A stretch of DNA of 39,050 nucleotides from Desulfobaccales bacterium (GTDB lineage: Bacteria; Desulfobacterota; Desulfobaccia; Desulfobaccales; 0-14-0-80-60-11). The notes beneath the pieces are model-generated. The model saw only the letters and a program-made list of their open reading frames with translations. It was not told where the DNA came from and searched no databases. Location: NCBI GenBank assembly GCA_037481655.1, contig JBBFLF010000023.1, positions 1-39,050 of the forward strand. The letters are read 5' to 3'. The position numbers and the translations under genes were made by a program. Positions 1 through 39,050 of the stretch are shown here, in pieces. Numbering within the stretch: the stretch's first letter is position 1; every line of letters starts with the position of its first letter.

Positions 1-64
1 CCATAAAGGGTTGGGAGGGGGGGCGGGGGGAGGGCAGGGAGCCACAGCTCCCTGGCCCTCCCCC
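1..64. repeat. Composite hairpin repeat, copy R1 (cut by window start)
   Basis: This is the right-hand part of a three-hairpin intergenic repeat seen seven times in the window. Bases 1-25 hold half of the central GC-rich hairpin. Bases 26-64 form hairpin A: a 10-bp G-run/C-run stem, a one-base bulge, the stem AGGGAGC/GCTCCCT and a CACA loop at 43-46. It ends 8 bp from the priA stop codon. There is no T-tract after the stem, so it is not a canonical intrinsic terminator. Confidence 0.8.
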
Positions 65-72
65 GCTTCCTT

Positions 73-3744: not shown

Positions 3745-6700
3745 TTACTTGCCGGTTCGGGCCCGGCGCCGCTCCTGGAACTGGCGCACCTGGTACATGA
3801 AGGCCTCCAGGCGGGTGCGGGTGTGGGTCTGTTCCTGGCCGTCGAAGGAGAGGTTCAGGAAGGGGATGTTGTCATGCTCCTGGCGGAAGCGGTGGAAGAG
3901 GGAATTCACCACCGTGCCGGGCATGCAGGTGAAGGGCATGAGGTTCACCAAGCCGCTGGCGCCTTTGCGGTAGAAGTCCTCGGCCTTGCCCATGCTGAGG
4001 ATGGCCTCGCCCTCAAAGGAGGGGTGCAAATAAGGCCGGGCCATCTTCAGGGTCTGAGCGATGGTGGGCTCCTCCAGATGGCGGATGGAGCCGTGGAAGA
4101 GGTGCCCCAGCTGGTGTTCGTCTTTGGTCTGCACCAGGTGCTTCAGCCATAAGTGCACCAAGGTGCGGTATTTCCGGGCCTGCCAGGCCCGGCGCCGGGA
4201 GGTGTGGGTGACGTAGAGCAGCCACTCGCCGATGGGCGGCATCATGGCTTCGCCTCCCAAGGCCTCGATCTCCCGGACAGTGTTTTCGTTGCTGAAGCGG
4301 TTGGAGCGCACGTAGATCTCGCCCACCACCCCCACCAGGGGCTTGTCGCCGTGGCCGTTTAAGGCCAGGTCGTCGAAGGCCAGGCGGGCTTCCTTGAGCA
4401 CCGCGGGGAGATCGCCCCGGTCCCTGAGGGTGCGGTAGACCTTGTCCAGGTAGTATTGATAGACCTTGTCGGCCTCGCCGGCCTGACGCTCGTAGGGCCG
4501 GGTCTGGAGGAGCTTTTTCTCCAGGAGGTCGATGGCCACCACCCCCCGCCAGGCGATGCGGTCGAAGTCCTCCCCCATCATGCCCACTTCCTCGTACATG
4601 GTCTCGCTCTGGTCGGGGGAGTAGACCGGCACCTGGGGGTAGCCCAGCTCGTCCAGCACCAGGCGGTGGTAGCGGCGGTACTGGCCGAAGCGGCAAGGGC
4701 CGTTGGCCGCAGGCATGAAAAAGGCGCTCTTGTCCGGGTCGAAGTCCGGGCGCCGCACCATCTTGGCCAGGTCGCCGGTGGTGAGGATGAGGGGATAGCA
4801 CTCCTTGCCGGAGGTGAGCCGCCGGCCCAAAGCCAGGGTCTCCTCGTCGGATTCAGGCAGCAGCACCGCGTCGCCGCCGCAGGCCTGGAAGGCGGCCACC
4901 AAAGCCAGGGCGTGGTCGGTCATGGGCGGCAGGTAGATGCGGCGCTTCAGGGCGCCGGTGACCCGGTAACGGAAGGGCGAGGTGGGCCGCTCCACTTCCC
5001 GGGGGGTGACGTTTTTCAGGCTGTCCAGAAAGGCCTCCAGCCGGGTGATGGCCCCCACGTCCGAGGAATGCTCGTCGATCTCGATCTCCAGATACGGCTT
5101 GCCCCGCATCTGCTCCCGGAAGAAGTGCTCGATGAAGGAGTCCGGCCCGCAGCCGAAGTTGGTGATGAAAATACCGTAAAGCCGCGGGTCTTTGCGGATG
5201 TATTCCGCCGCGCCCAGGATCTTCTGGCCGAAGCGCCAGTACATGGGCTTGACCTCCTCCAGCAGGCTGTCCACGTCATCCAAGGGGAGGAAGTCCATGG
5301 GCATGGCCAACACACCCAGCTGGCGCAGCTTGCGGTGCAGATTGAGGTTCATGCCCGGATCCAGGGCATTGTACGGCCGGCCGATGAGGACCATCAGGCG
5401 CTCGCCCTCTTTAAGGCCGGAGAGGATCTCCCGGCCCCGGGCATGCAGGCGGCGGTAATAGTCTTCCTGGGCGGCCAGAGCCCTTTCCATGGCCCTATCC
5501 GCCGCGAAGCGGGACACCCCCAGCATGCGGCCCAGGTCCCGCAGGCCCTCCCGGAGGCGCTCCTTGCCCCGGCCGAAGTAGAGGACCGGGGTCAGAAGCC
5601 GGGCCCCATAGGAGGCCACGTCAATGGCGGTGGGGAGGGTATAGGCCAGGGACTGCACCATGGGGCAGACCACCCCGGATTTCACCTCCGGGTGTTTGTG
5701 GGGCAGGTCGATGATGCTGGGAAGGAGGATGCGTTGGACGCCGTTTTTCAGTAAATCCAGCACGTGCCCATGGGCCACTTTGACGGGATAACAAGGCTCC
5801 GCCGCCAGGCACTCCACCCCCTGGCGGATCACCGCCTTGTTGGTCTTGGGGGAATACACCACCCCGAAGCCCAGCTCCTCCAGGAAGGTGCGGAAAAAGG
5901 GCATGTACTCCTGGAAGTACATGGTGCGGGGAATGCCGATCTGCCCCCGAGGGCCCTCGGCGGGCGGCTCCGGACCATAGAGCAGGTCCTCCCGCTCTTT
6001 CACCAGATCCGGAAGGTCAACCTGCACCCTTTTGGTGTCCACTTCGTACTTTTCGCAGCGGCTGCCGTAGAACAGGGGGCGCTCGCCTTCGATCTGCACC
6101 TGGCGGATCTCGCAGCGGTTGGGACAGCTCTGGCATTCGAAGGACTGGATGGTGTATTTCCGCTCCGCCAGATCGAAGCCCTTGAAGCGGGAGGTCTTCC
6201 AGGTGCGCTCCCGCATGGCCAGGATGGCGGCGCCGATGGCCCCGGTGACGTCGTGGTGCGGCGGCACGGTGATGGGCTTGCCCAGGACCGACTCGAAGGC
6301 CGCCACAATGCCCTTGTTGGCCGCGGTGGCCCCCTGGTAGAAGATCTTCTTGCCGATGCGGCGGTCCTCCACCACCTTGTTCAGGTAGTTATAGACGATG
6401 GAGTACGAGAGCCCGGCCACCAGGTCATCCTTGGCCGCGCCCCGCTGCTGGTGGTGAACGATGTCCGATTCCATGAACACGGTGCAGCGCTCGCCCATGC
6501 GCACCGGCTTTTCCGCCTCCAGGGCCAGGCGGCCGAACTCCTCCTTGATGGAGATGCCCAGCTTTTCCGCCTGCTCTTCCAGGTACGAGCCGGTGCCGGC
6601 GGCGCAGACCTTGTTCATCATGAAATCCACGATGGCGCCGTTGTCCAGGGCGATGAACTTGGAGTCCTGACCGCCGATCTCAAAGATGGTGTCCACCTCC

Positions 6701-7938
6701 GGGTCGATGGCCGCGGCGGCGGTGGCCTGGGCGGTGATTTCGTTGCGCACCACGTCGGCGCCGATGAAGTCCCCGGTGAGGTAGCGGCCGGAGCCGGTGG
6801 TGGCCGCGCCCATGATCTTCACCCGGCCGGCCAGACGTTTCCCCACCCGGCGCAGACCCTCGGTGATGGCCTCCAGGGGGCGGCCGGCGGTCATGAGATA
6901 CTCCCGGGCCAGCACCCGCATGTCCTTGTCGATGACCACCACGTTGGTGCTGATGGAGCCCACGTCAATGCCGAGATAGGCCTCGGTGTCGGAGCCCAGA
7001 GGCGGGGGCTCAGCCACGGCGTAGCGGTCGTAGCCCGGGTCGGCGGGGGGCTTGAGGCGGGGCAGGGGATGCTCCGGTTCGGCTTCCCGGGCCAGGTATT
7101 CCTCCAGAGGGGTCAGGTTCAGGGCGAAGTGAGCAGGAGGCTCCTCGGCAGTCACGAGCGCCGCGCCCAGAGCCCCCAGGGCGCAGAAATGGGGCGGGAT
7201 GATGAGCTCGCCGTCGGCCAGCTCCAGGACCTCCTGGAAGGCCTTGCGCACCCCCAGGTTGTGGGCCACCCCGCCCTGGAAGGCCACCGGCGGGGTGAGC
7301 TTTTTCCCCTTGGCGATGTTGCTCTTGAGATTGCGGGCCACCGCCTGGCAGAGGCCCGCCACGATCTCGTAATCCGGGGTGGCGCCCTGCTGCAGATGGA
7401 TCATGTCACTTTTGGCAAAGACGCTGCAGCGGCCGGCGATGCGGGGCGGGGTGGTGGATTTCAGGGCCAGGGTGCTGAACTCCTCGATGGTGTAGCCCAG
7501 GCGGTGGGCCTGCTGGTCCAAAAAGGAGCCGGTGCCGGCGGCGCACATGGTGTTCATGGCAAAATCCACGATCACCTGCTTGTCCCCTTCCCGGTCCACC
7601 AGAATCAGCTTGGCGTCCTCACCCCCCATGTCAATGATGCTTTTGACCTCGGGGTGGAAATGGAAGGTGCCCCGGGCCAGGGCGATGACTTCATTGACGA
7701 AGGGGCAGCCCAGAAGCTCCGCCAGGACCTTGCCGCCCATGCCGGTGCAGGCGGCCAGGCGGAAGGAATCCAGAGGGAATTCCCCGGTCAGGTCGGTGAG
7801 CAGGCGGTGGGCGGTGCGGTAGGGCTCGCCCAGATGCCGCCGGTATTCCTCCCTAAGCACTCTCCCATCCTGATCTACTACCACCAGATTGACACTGACA
7901 GAGCCGATATCCAGCCCCAGAGACAGTCCCCGGTTCAT
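3745..7938 (-). CDS. Tandem ASKHA acyl-CoA dehydratase-type activase (HgdC/BadF family, 1397 aa)
   Basis: This giant protein belongs to the family of ATP-dependent activators of 2-hydroxyacyl-CoA dehydratases and benzoyl-CoA reductases (HgdC/BadF/BadG), fused to extra domains. Two ASKHA ATPase domains are visible at about residues 5-265 and 320-575. Each starts with a phosphate loop (GLDIGSVSVN; GIDVGSISTN) and carries the [4Fe-4S] signature: C132 in MCAAGTGS with C171, and C445 in VCAAGTGS with C485. A short Cys motif (C602, C605, C609) follows. A DUF2229-type region begins near 665 (GIPRTMYFQEYMPFF), and an HgdB-like C-terminal region contains GKECYPLILTTGD. Members of about 1400 residues are common in anaerobes, but their substrate enzyme is usually unknown. 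No dehydratase alpha or beta genes lie nearby. ATG start. Confidence 0.93.
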   Translation of the reverse strand: MNRGLSLGLDIGSVSVNLVVVDQDGRVLREEYRRHLGEPYRTAHRLLTDLTGEFPLDSFRLAACTGMGGKVLAELLGCPFVNEVIALARGTFHFHPEVKSIIDMGGEDAKLILVDREGDKQVIVDFAMNTMCAAGTGSFLDQQAHRLGYTIEEFSTLALKSTTPPRIAGRCSVFAKSDMIHLQQGATPDYEIVAGLCQAVARNLKSNIAKGKKLTPPVAFQGGVAHNLGVRKAFQEVLELADGELIIPPHFCALGALGAALVTAEEPPAHFALNLTPLEEYLAREAEPEHPLPRLKPPADPGYDRYAVAEPPPLGSDTEAYLGIDVGSISTNVVVIDKDMRVLAREYLMTAGRPLEAITEGLRRVGKRLAGRVKIMGAATTGSGRYLTGDFIGADVVRNEITAQATAAAAIDPEVDTIFEIGGQDSKFIALDNGAIVDFMMNKVCAAGTGSYLEEQAEKLGISIKEEFGRLALEAEKPVRMGERCTVFMESDIVHHQQRGAAKDDLVAGLSYSIVYNYLNKVVEDRRIGKKIFYQGATAANKGIVAAFESVLGKPITVPPHHDVTGAIGAAILAMRERTWKTSRFKGFDLAERKYTIQSFECQSCPNRCEIRQVQIEGERPLFYGSRCEKYEVDTKRVQVDLPDLVKEREDLLYGPEPPAEGPRGQIGIPRTMYFQEYMPFFRTFLEELGFGVVYSPKTNKAVIRQGVECLAAEPCYPVKVAHGHVLDLLKNGVQRILLPSIIDLPHKHPEVKSGVVCPMVQSLAYTLPTAIDVASYGARLLTPVLYFGRGKERLREGLRDLGRMLGVSRFAADRAMERALAAQEDYYRRLHARGREILSGLKEGERLMVLIGRPYNALDPGMNLNLHRKLRQLGVLAMPMDFLPLDDVDSLLEEVKPMYWRFGQKILGAAEYIRKDPRLYGIFITNFGCGPDSFIEHFFREQMRGKPYLEIEIDEHSSDVGAITRLEAFLDSLKNVTPREVERPTSPFRYRVTGALKRRIYLPPMTDHALALVAAFQACGGDAVLLPESDEETLALGRRLTSGKECYPLILTTGDLAKMVRRPDFDPDKSAFFMPAANGPCRFGQYRRYHRLVLDELGYPQVPVYSPDQSETMYEEVGMMGEDFDRIAWRGVVAIDLLEKKLLQTRPYERQAGEADKVYQYYLDKVYRTLRDRGDLPAVLKEARLAFDDLALNGHGDKPLVGVVGEIYVRSNRFSNENTVREIEALGGEAMMPPIGEWLLYVTHTSRRRAWQARKYRTLVHLWLKHLVQTKDEHQLGHLFHGSIRHLEEPTIAQTLKMARPYLHPSFEGEAILSMGKAEDFYRKGASGLVNLMPFTCMPGTVVNSLFHRFRQEHDNIPFLNLSFDGQEQTHTRTRLEAFMYQVRQFQERRRARTGK

Positions 7939-10124: not shown

Positions 10125-10252
10125 CTGGGAGAGGGGGCCAGGGGTCGTGGACCCCTGCCCCCTCTCCCAGCCCCTCTCCCCCAACCCCTTACAGGGGGTT
10201 GGGAGGGGAGAGGGGAGGGCGGGGGAGCCACCGCTCCCCCGGCCCTCCCCTC
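10125..10252. repeat. Composite hairpin repeat, copy R2 (order B-mid-A)
   Basis: All three hairpins are present. B (10125-10170) has a 21-bp stem, CTGGGAGAGGGGG then CAGGGGTC, interrupted only by one bulged C. The central hairpin uses 10171-10188 and 10194-10215. A (10210-10252) has GGGGGAGC/GCTCCCCC around CACC. The copy lies in the leader of the iron-sulfur flavoprotein gene, ending 18 bp before its ribosome site. Confidence 0.85.
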
Positions 10253-10280
10253 ACAATAAAATTTATGCCAAGGAGGAGTG

Positions 10281-10850: not shown

Positions 10851-10980
10851 GCGGGGGGAGGGCCAGGGAGCGGTGGCTCCCTGCCCTCCCCCCGCGCCCC
10901 CCACCCAACCCTTTATGGGTTTGGGGGTGGGGGCGTGGGGGAGGGCGTAAGGGCCTGCGGCCCTTAGCCCCCTCCCCCAC
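10851..10980. repeat. Composite hairpin repeat, copy R3 (order A-mid-B)
   Basis: Hairpin A (10851-10895) has a 13-bp outer stem, a bulged C, AGGGAGC/GCTCCCT and loop GGTG. The central hairpin (about 10896-10934) has ACCCAACCC facing GGGTTTGGGGGT. Hairpin B (10935-10980) runs from GTGGGGGAGGGC to GCCCCCTCCCCCAC. It fills the whole gap between two convergent genes, 3 bp from one stop and 2 bp from the other. Confidence 0.88.
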
Positions 10981-28490: not shown

Positions 28491-28617
28491 TTGGGGGGAG
28501 GGCCAGGGAACACAGTTCCCTGCCCTCCCCCCAAGCCCCCCTCCCAACCCTTTAAGGGATTGGGGAGGGGGGGTGGGGGAGGGGTAAGGGGCCACCGCCC
28601 CTTAGCCCCTCCCCCAC
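28491..28617. repeat. Composite hairpin repeat, copy R4 (between ffh and rpsP)
   Basis: Hairpin A (28491-28534) has a 13-bp outer stem, a bulged C and AGGGAAC/GTTCCCT around ACA. The inner stem differs from R3 (AGGGAGC/GCTCCCT) on both sides at once, a paired change. The central hairpin uses CCTCCCAACCC and GGGATTGGGGAGG around TTTAA. Hairpin B (28573-28617) has a 20-bp stem around CACC. B ends 5 bp from the ffh stop codon. Confidence 0.88.
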
Positions 28618-28622
28618 AACTC

Positions 28623-30814: not shown

Positions 30815-30943
30815 TTACCCAAGTTTGATCATCCCCAACGGCTTCAGCTTGGCCACCTTTTTGGAAATGCCGGCGCCGCGGGTGACGTTCACCACGATCG
30901 CAACGCCCTTATAGGCGTCGGAGATGTCCTCGTAAATGGTCCC
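30815..30943 (-). pseudogene. C-terminal fragment of a second rtcB
   Basis: About 41 codons resemble the last part of the intact rtcB next door. The fragment ends VVNVTRGAGISKKVAKLKPLGMIKLG and then TAA; the intact gene ends VVNVTHGAGISKKVAKLKPLGVIKG. Roughly 70 percent of residues match, so this is not a recent copy but a remnant of a diverged paralogue or foreign allele. Its codons are in the same frame as rtcB, 68 codons beyond that gene's stop. It has no start codon or ribosome site of its own. Its end marks the border to AT-rich DNA. Confidence 0.85.
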
Positions 30944-31021: not shown

Positions 31022-32467
31022 CTAACCCTTGATCACCCCCAACGGCTTCAGCTTGGCCACCTTTTTGGAGATGCCGGCGCCGTGGGTGACGTTCACCACG
31101 TTCTCCACATCCTTGTAAGCCTCGGAGATCTCTTCGTCGATGGTGTCCCGACCGGCGCCCCGGACGATGATGCCCTTGGCCGCCATCTCCTGCACCACCC
31201 GCCGGCCCTTGGCCGCCTTGATGGCCGCGGCCCGGCTGAGCTCCCGGCCGGCGCCGTGGCAGGTGCTGCCAAAGGTCTCCTCCAAGGCGCGCTGGGTGCC
31301 CACCAACACAAAGGAATAGCGCCCCATGTCCCCGGGGATGAGCACCGGCTGGCCGGTCTCCCGGTAGGCGGGGGGCACCTCCGGATGCCCGGGGGGAAAG
31401 GCCCGGGTGGCGCCTTTGCGGTGCACGCACACCGTCTTTTCCTTGCCGTCGATGACGTGCTTCTCGATCTTGGCGATGTTGTGGGCCACGTCGTAGATGA
31501 GCTCCAGACCCAGGTCCCGGGGGCCCATCTTCAGGACCTGCTCGAAGGACTCCCGGACCCAGTGGGTGATCATCTGGCGGTTGGCAAAGGCGAAGTTGGC
31601 CGCCGCCGCCATGGCCGCCAGATACTGCTGGCCCTCCGGCGAGCGAATGGGCGCCGAGCAGAGCTGACGGTCCGGCAGCTCAATGCCATACTTGGCACTG
31701 GCCTTGAGCATCACCTTGATGAAGTCGTCGCACACCTGATGCCCCAGCCCCCGGGAACCGGTGTGGATGATGACCGTCACCTGGCCGGGGAAGAGCCCCA
31801 GGGCCCTCGCCAGCGGCTCATCATAGATTTCGGCCACATAGCCCACTTCCACAAAATGGTTGCCGCTCCCCAGAGTGCCCAGCTGGTCCTTGCCCCGGTC
31901 CATGGCGAACTGGCTCACCAGGTCGGGATCGGCCCCAGGAATCTGCCCGCCGGCCTCGATGTGGGCCAGGTCATCGGTCGTGCCGAAGCCCTGCTTCACC
32001 GCCCAGGCGGCGCCGTACCGCATCACCTCCTTCAGGGTAGGGACGGTGAGCTTCAAATCTTTGCGCCGGGAACCCACCCCGGTGGGGATGTTGTCAAAGA
32101 GGGCGTTGACCAGCTCCTCGATCCGGTCGGCGATGGCCTGCCGCTCCAGATTGGTGCGCAACAGCCGCACCCCGCAGTTGATGTCGTAGCCCACCCCGCC
32201 GGGGGAGACCACCCCCTCCTCCAAATTGAAGGCCGCCACCCCGCCGATAGGGAAACCATACCCCCAATGAATGTCGGGCATGGCCATGGACGGCCCCTCA
32301 ATCCCCGGGAGCGTGGCCACATTGGCCACCTGCTCCAGACTGCGGTCCTCATGAATCTTGGGGAGCATCTCCTTGGAGGCAAAAATCAGCCCCCGAGTAC
32401 GCATCTTCCCCTCCCGGGGAATCTCCCAGCGATACTCATCCACCTGCCGAAGCTTGATCTGCGCCAT
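31022..32467 (-). CDS. rtcB: RNA-splicing ligase RtcB
   Basis: RtcB joins 2',3'-cyclic phosphate and 5'-OH RNA ends in a GTP- and Mn-dependent reaction, in tRNA splicing or RNA repair. The 481-residue product starts MAQIKLRQVDEYRW at 32467; the open frame upstream to 32608 is only the translated repeat R5. Visible features are MPDIHWGYGFPIGG, the metal-binding C98 in GYDINCGV, HTGSRGLGHQ, and the nucleophile H404 in STCHGAGREL, which takes GMP. The archease gene lies directly upstream. A diverged fragment of a second rtcB lies directly downstream in the same frame. Confidence 0.97.
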   Translation of the reverse strand: MAQIKLRQVDEYRWEIPREGKMRTRGLIFASKEMLPKIHEDRSLEQVANVATLPGIEGPSMAMPDIHWGYGFPIGGVAAFNLEEGVVSPGGVGYDINCGVRLLRTNLERQAIADRIEELVNALFDNIPTGVGSRRKDLKLTVPTLKEVMRYGAAWAVKQGFGTTDDLAHIEAGGQIPGADPDLVSQFAMDRGKDQLGTLGSGNHFVEVGYVAEIYDEPLARALGLFPGQVTVIIHTGSRGLGHQVCDDFIKVMLKASAKYGIELPDRQLCSAPIRSPEGQQYLAAMAAAANFAFANRQMITHWVRESFEQVLKMGPRDLGLELIYDVAHNIAKIEKHVIDGKEKTVCVHRKGATRAFPPGHPEVPPAYRETGQPVLIPGDMGRYSFVLVGTQRALEETFGSTCHGAGRELSRAAAIKAAKGRRVVQEMAAKGIIVRGAGRDTIDEEISEAYKDVENVVNVTHGAGISKKVAKLKPLGVIKG

Positions 32468-32479
32468 AGTCCGGGTGAT

Positions 32480-32608
32480 GAGGGGAGGGCCGGGGGAGCA
32501 GTGGCTCCCCCGCCCTCCCCTCAAACTCCCCTCCCCACCCCCTTTATGGGGTTGGGGAGGGGGCTTGGGGGAGGGGCAGGGGCCGTCGGCCCCTGGCCCC
32601 TCCCCCAA
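32480..32608. repeat. Composite hairpin repeat, copy R5 (between archease and rtcB)
   Basis: A (32480-32522) has GAGGGGAGGGC, a bulged C and GGGGGAGC/GCTCCCCC around AGTG. The central hairpin spans about 32525-32564 around CTTTA. B (32565-32608) has TTGGGGGAGGGGCAGGGGCC facing its complement around GTC. B ends 5 bp from the archease stop, and A begins 12 bp before the rtcB start codon, over its expected ribosome site. Confidence 0.88.
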
Positions 32609-32613
32609 GATCC

Positions 32614-33741: not shown

Positions 33742-33808
33742 AGGATGTCCTTGTGGATGATGATGAGGTTAACGGCTGAAAACCTTTGTTTATCCCTTTT
33801 TATCAGGA

Positions 33809-33870
33809 TTGGGGGTGGGGGTTTGGGGGGAGGGGGTAAAGGGCCACTGCCCCTTAGCCCCCTCCCCCAC
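33809..33870. repeat. Composite hairpin repeat, copy R6 (partial; between iorA and iorB)
   Basis: Hairpin B (about 33824-33870) is complete, with GGGGGGAGGGGGTAAAGGGC facing GCCCCTTAGCCCCCTCCCCC around CACT. Only half of the central hairpin remains (33809-33823), and hairpin A is absent. B ends 6 bp from the iorA stop codon. Confidence 0.8.
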
Positions 33871-33876
33871 CACATA

Positions 33877-38977: not shown

Positions 38978-38986
38978 CGGGTTGCC

Positions 38987-39050
38987 TTGAGGGGAGGGCT
39001 GGGGGAACGCAGTTCCCCCACCCTCCCCTCAAACTCCCCTCCCCACCCCC
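38987..39050. repeat. Composite hairpin repeat, copy R7 (cut by window end)
   Basis: Hairpin A is complete (38987-39032), with TTGAGGGGAGGG and GGGGGAAC/GTTCCCCC around GCA. The beginning of the central hairpin follows to 39050 (ACTCCCCTCCCCACCCC, the same as in R5). The copy lies in the leader of nadD. Confidence 0.8.

Follow-up and report, generated by a model that had tools for sequence, protein, structure and literature searches.

The 39,050-bp stretch of DNA analysed here (the window) is an entire contig (C23) of a 2.87-Mb genome, which is assembled in 50 contigs and rated 100% complete, and it carries copies of a three-hairpin repeat. By anatomy, the element behaves as a BIME, and the tests made place it outside both the tagged REP superfamilies and the RAYT-dependent REPINs. 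The repeats probably, though far from certainly, constitute an order-wide family of non-autonomous BIME-like elements among the relatives of Desulfobacca (sulfate-reducer-like bacteria that have received little study), forming 3′-UTR hairpins and served by a mobilising enzyme. The preliminary description had likened the copies to BIME/REP elements in kind, a likeness borne out by the number of copies, their position between genes, the inverted arrangement of bulged hairpins, and the covariation of the stems.

In a complete copy, hairpins A and B enclose a palindromic centre whose loop is TTTAT-like. Matching sequence is present at all seven sites in the 39 kb at which copies had been reported. 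The single plan ascribed to these seven copies holds for four complete ones, one of which lies on the minus strand; the remaining three are partial, two being truncated by the contig ends and one a degraded half copy. The minus-strand copy, 10125..10254 (113 bits with the covariance model; folding z −9.2), is composed of a B hairpin (~10125–10170), a centre (~10171–10209), and an A hairpin (~10210–10254), which is 3′ on the plus strand. The orthologous site in a sister species (G001) is a spacer of just 16 nt. On the plus strand, the copy at 10851..10980 (128 bits, z −9.5; A ~10851–10895, centre 10897–10933, B 10934–10980) lies between convergent genes and starts 4 nt past the stop of a flavodoxin-like gene (end 10847). 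The ffh–rpsP spacer holds a plus-strand copy at 28491..28618 (128 bits, z −10.8), with A at ~28491–28534, then the centre, and B at 28573–28617; at this position G002 and the Desulfobacca MAG L102 have decayed forms. The last complete copy, 32478..32609 (plus strand, 124.7 bits, z −10.7), is found in the archease–rtcB spacer, with A at ~32478–32524 and B at 32563–32609 on either side of the centre.

Among the partial copies, the degraded one at 33770..33872 (plus strand, 46 bits, z −2.5) comprises the right half of the centre and the B hairpin, and lies in the iorA–iorB spacer, a site that measures 13 nt in G002. The contig start truncates a minus-strand copy at 1..69 (49.7 bits, cut off at its 3′ side), leaving half of the centre and the A hairpin (~23–66) directly behind priA. 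At the contig end, a plus-strand copy at 38985..39050 (49.9 bits, z −7.2, also cut off at 3′) retains the A hairpin (~38987–39032) and half of the centre upstream of nadD. Like both ends of C23, the ends of contigs C41, C46, C48, C1, C31, and C35 fall inside copies, which indicates that the repeats break the assembly. Folding was compared with dinucleotide shuffles (n=200 per copy): the complete window copies reach z values of −9.2 to −10.8 and 113–128 bits, and 0/200 shuffles fold as well, against the z of −2.5 for the degraded half copy. The A stem pairs quoted in the preliminary description are present in the copies. The window also contains a 116-bp direct repeat (30825–30940 and 31029–31144; 87% identical, 204 bp apart), whose second copy overlaps the 3′ end of rtcB. 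At 3745–7938, a 1397-aa ORF is presumably a fusion of a 2-hydroxyacyl-CoA dehydratase activator and component, to judge from how it reads.

The anatomy of the unit was derived from a 28-copy alignment, which gave a covariance model of 135 positions and 48 pairs, and from hairpins fitted copy by copy in the source genome (G000; 64 well-fitted copies). Across the latter, hairpin A has 12 basal and 7–9 apical pairs with a bulged C on its 5′ arm; hairpin B likewise has 7–9 apical pairs, and its bulge is a G on the 3′ arm. Each bulge is kept in 61/64 copies. Inverted, hairpin B has the plan of A: the bulge positions mirror each other, and the loops of inverted B are those of A (AGTG, GGTG, GCA, and ACA). 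Loops of the reverse complement of B match A loops in 25/58 cases, compared with 2 for untransformed, 2 for reversed, and 8 for complemented controls. From the mirrored bulges and the common loop sets it follows that the unit is a hairpin (REP), a palindromic structured spacer, and an inverted hairpin partner, which is the BIME plan. Some copies bear an additional hairpin of ~50–60 nt in the central TTTAT-like loop. It occurs in other genera (L065 in G006, L069 in G014, and L073 in G013) and in the source genome at C1:142687–142869 and C20:7148–7338, and its sequence differs among the copies examined.

Pairing in the stems is retained through changes on both sides. In the 28-copy MAFFT alignment, 97.1% of pair cells hold standard pairs versus 90.7% after shuffling, 108 cells show two-sided changes versus 36.4, and 16 pairs show such changes versus 9.6. 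None of 500 shuffles reaches the pairing and two-sided-change values, although deriving the structure from this very alignment biases the comparison somewhat in its favour. The signal vanishes when partners are slid by 1–3 columns. The outermost A pair is complementary in 74% of cases (31% expected) and the next pair outward is at chance; in B the pattern recurs one position further out, with values of 66% and 32% and chance level beyond. There is almost no constraint on the type of the outermost A pair (TA 20, GC 13, CG 8); all four types occur at the outermost pair, and complementarity is retained. In copy pairs at 90–95% identity, 47% of the stem pairs that differ have changed on both sides and still pair, and apical pairs switch from G-C to C-G without a wobble intermediate. 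None of the models considered fully explains the two-sided changes at highly variable pairs.

Uncompensated stem changes had been named as a test of the earlier claim that structure rather than sequence is kept, and compensation proves to be far above the shuffled level. The claim itself holds between copies within the genome (two-sided changes 108 versus 36), but same-site copies in sister species often decay via one-sided changes. Among the 64 fitted copies, pairs that fail are mostly A-C in A and mostly G-U in B; in terms of the mirrored hairpin, both amount to G-to-A or C-to-T changes on one and the same arm. This pattern suggests strand-asymmetric deamination.

A genome-wide search with the covariance model, as had been proposed, returned at least 150 matches in the 2.87-Mb genome; since the unit is quasi-palindromic, the model scores both strands of every element, and the doubles this produces were removed by hand in a hit list made after that search. 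Several relatives have at least 67–107 matches per genome. Among 30 relatives searched, the element is present in all 18 further family members and in 5/7 genomes of the sister family of the same order; the sister-family genomes often have just one or a few matches. In a phylum sample, 15/297 genomes were positive. Eleven of them belong to the same order; the remaining four, among ~286 genomes outside it, gave a single weak match apiece. The repeat is thus frequent in its family, present in the sister family, and nearly absent elsewhere in the phylum. By RtcB and gene order, the nearest named relatives are Desulfobacca and other deltaproteobacterial MAGs. Rfam gave no match in the window at gathering scores; at E up to 1 it gave sub-threshold matches, the top ones mostly of microRNA models to GC-rich hairpins. 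Plasmid and phage collections returned no matches, in searches whose low-complexity filter may mask such sequence. The literature search found no paper naming the repeat family, and in this respect the earlier statement that no named family was recognised stands.

Gene context was taken from 0.82 Mb (28%) of the source genome with a homemade gene caller, checked against the window only. Of 106 sampled elements, 104 (~98%) are intergenic, one lies inside a weak ORF, and one is at a contig edge. The intergenic elements comprise 68 between tandem, 27 between convergent, and 9 between divergent genes, and elements occupy 27/105 convergent versus 9/84 divergent gene pairs (p = 0.009). Copies typically begin 2–25 nt after a stop codon, and between tandem genes the median distance from the upstream stop is 5 nt. 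Where boundaries are exact, 24/35 tandem copies are no more than 15 nt from the stop (69%, whereas uniform placement in the spacer would give 46%), and 15/17 convergent copies are equally close to at least one stop. In the same 0.82 Mb, orientation relative to transcription shows no preference (37 to 31), as expected from a mirror-symmetric unit. TTTT occurs within 10 nt in 5/58 copies after B and 3/58 after A. An intrinsic terminator was rejected as an identification since a U tract after the hairpin is not generally present.

The history of the sites was followed in 45 ortholog comparisons with G001 and G002 (~85–90% nucleotide identity). Short spacers were found at two (16 and 13 nt), which could represent insertion in one genome or deletion in the other; no target-site duplication, such as a MITE of a DDE transposon would leave, was seen at either. 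The remaining spacers measure at least 54 nt. Decayed elements can be recognised in several of them, and in some no element is detectable. Clean empty sites are rare, and no insertion was seen that was both clean and accompanied by target duplication. One-sided stem breaks occur where orthologous copies are comparable, and in sister species the copy at a given site has often decayed or belongs to a different stem type. Assembly breaks inside copies leave intact orthologous copies under-sampled. At archease–rtcB, an element is present in G000, G001, G002, G005, and G007 and absent from G003. The site is occupied in at least three genera, and the copies in G000 and G002 are of different stem types. 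With the exception of one tandem duplicate, all sampled copies are at most 95% identical to one another, which means that recent transposition is not visible; the lack of near-identical copies also speaks against recent bursts of copying. Tandem duplications of the element with its flank occur in G000 at 304-bp spacing (C9:121725, 122029, and 122333) and at 288-bp spacing (C1:81332 and 81620); the latter pair is identical across the element.

The search for a TnpA-REP (RAYT) gene, also suggested at the outset, found none in the source genome or in two congeners. No match to PF01797 (Y1_Tnp) was obtained in G000, G001, and G002 (genus g1; 95–100% complete) or in G011 (84% complete), all of which are element-rich, nor in G019 and G020 of the sister family. 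Other family members carry 2–8 PF01797 matches. Element number and Y1 number are unrelated (Spearman −0.09, p = 0.65; top element counts at least 107). At 20 RAYT-like loci in relatives, no intact element copies flank the gene, and weak matches (at most 43 bits) occur at three loci. A RAYT as neighbour was rejected, being absent from the genome itself and accompanied by no intact copies at the relatives' loci. The sequence tags of known REP families are not enriched at the hairpin feet: GTAG was found at 6/116 and CGTC at 1/116, with shuffled expectations of 6.2 and 1.9.

Several other accounts bear on these observations. The elements may be host 3′-UTR regulatory RNA (terminator or stabiliser) under selection at fixed sites rather than mobile DNA, with copies that duplicated long ago and persist for the sake of RNA folding. 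This account is doubtful, if by no means negligible: location just behind stop codons, convergent enrichment, compensated stem changes, and the archease–rtcB site shared by at least three genera all agree with it, but the general lack of a T tract and the random orientation do not, and same-site copies in sister species have often decayed or changed stem type. Moreover, on the given strand the breaks are A-C in A and G-U in B, so that no one transcript shows a uniform preference for G-U. Two-sided change without functional selection would also arise if replication copied one hairpin arm from the other. Such hairpin-templated correction accords with the large share of two-sided, fully paired changes at 90–95% copy identity, with the outermost pair being of any type yet complementary, and with the direct apical flips, but it should erase a single-base bulge that both hairpins keep almost throughout. 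With one-sided breaks at orthologous sites also against it, and with two-sided differences that may be inherited subtypes common to several copies, it is unlikely. A broader proposal, that a repeat population with no resident transposase is kept intact by joint rewriting of both arms, is put forward very tentatively; the route would be hairpin-templated correction or conversion between copies at old, fixed 3′-UTR sites. If true, position would be inherited and sequence renewed, whereas REPINs depend on copying by a RAYT.

Ordinary REPINs whose RAYT was recently lost, or is absent from the draft assembly, are improbable. The architecture is that of a BIME, and E. coli REPs likewise have a bulged C, which is contacted by TnpAREP (PMC8266576); other members of the family do have RAYT-like genes, and copies could persist after loss of the gene, a situation known from E. 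coli strains without a RAYT (PMC8049555). Against this, Y1_Tnp is missing from four element-rich family genomes and from G019 and G020, element and Y1 numbers are unrelated, the 20 RAYT-like loci show weak matches at three, and the GTAG/CGTC tag is absent. Chance GC-rich hairpins or an assembly artefact have next to no probability, despite the G/C-rich low-complexity sequence and the contig ends inside copies: the plan is identical across many separately assembled genomes, ~286 other phylum genomes give almost no matches, and folding z is about −10 against dinucleotide shuffles. These controls refute that account.

The preferred explanation, a mobilised family of BIME-like repeats, would operate at two levels. 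In RNA, the three GC-rich hairpins may form a 3′-end barrier that shields the upstream cistron from 3′–5′ exonucleases, and/or may dampen read-through; the barrier role is suggested by placement and by the known behaviour of REPs (cited in PMC8049555 and PMC3733652). In DNA, the fixed bulge and inverted pairing point to a single-strand hairpin-binding enzyme that may once have spread the unit, or may still spread it. The spreading enzyme is not a RAYT encoded in the same genome. Against the preferred explanation, just 2/45 ortholog comparisons show a short spacer, either possibly a deletion, neither a clean insertion with target duplication nor recent transposition is visible, and the search for a mobiliser yielded none. 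The family shows that such a repeat population can be large and structurally intact without a resident Y1 transposase. Its members fill many long intergenic gaps and disrupt short-read assemblies, and they provide a natural setting in which to ask whether such hairpins persist as selfish DNA, as 3′-UTR modules, or via hairpin-templated repair.

Among known systems, intrinsic terminators also place GC-rich hairpins after stop codons and between convergent genes, but the repeats have three hairpins and no general T tract, and lie within conserved gene strings (archease–rtcB and ffh–rpsP). Like REPINs, they are persistent paired inverted hairpins with many decayed members (Bertels and Rainey; PMC3116915, PMC8049555); unlike REPINs, they have no RAYT in the genome or its congeners, and their population size is unrelated to Y1 number. 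With the GTAG and CGTC REP superfamilies they share high copy number (at least 150 matches), intergenic location (104/106), imperfect palindromy, dimers with structured spacers near stop codons, and stem subtypes with complementary changes (PMC3733652). CGTC families, too, have no known transposase (Di Nocera 2013, PMC3733652). The present hairpins differ in being longer and purine/pyrimidine polarised, with no tag enriched at either foot. Compared with the E. coli BIME, they lack the GTAG tag and a RAYT in the genome, have stems of ~20 bp with a single-base bulge instead of a two-base mismatch, and use a long palindrome as spacer. In common with it, two bulged hairpins are inverted around a spacer in more than 100 intergenic copies, and the unit is amplified in tandem with its flank. 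BIME-type repeats are thereby extended to the Desulfobacca order, in a form without the sequence tag and the RAYT that serve as search hallmarks.
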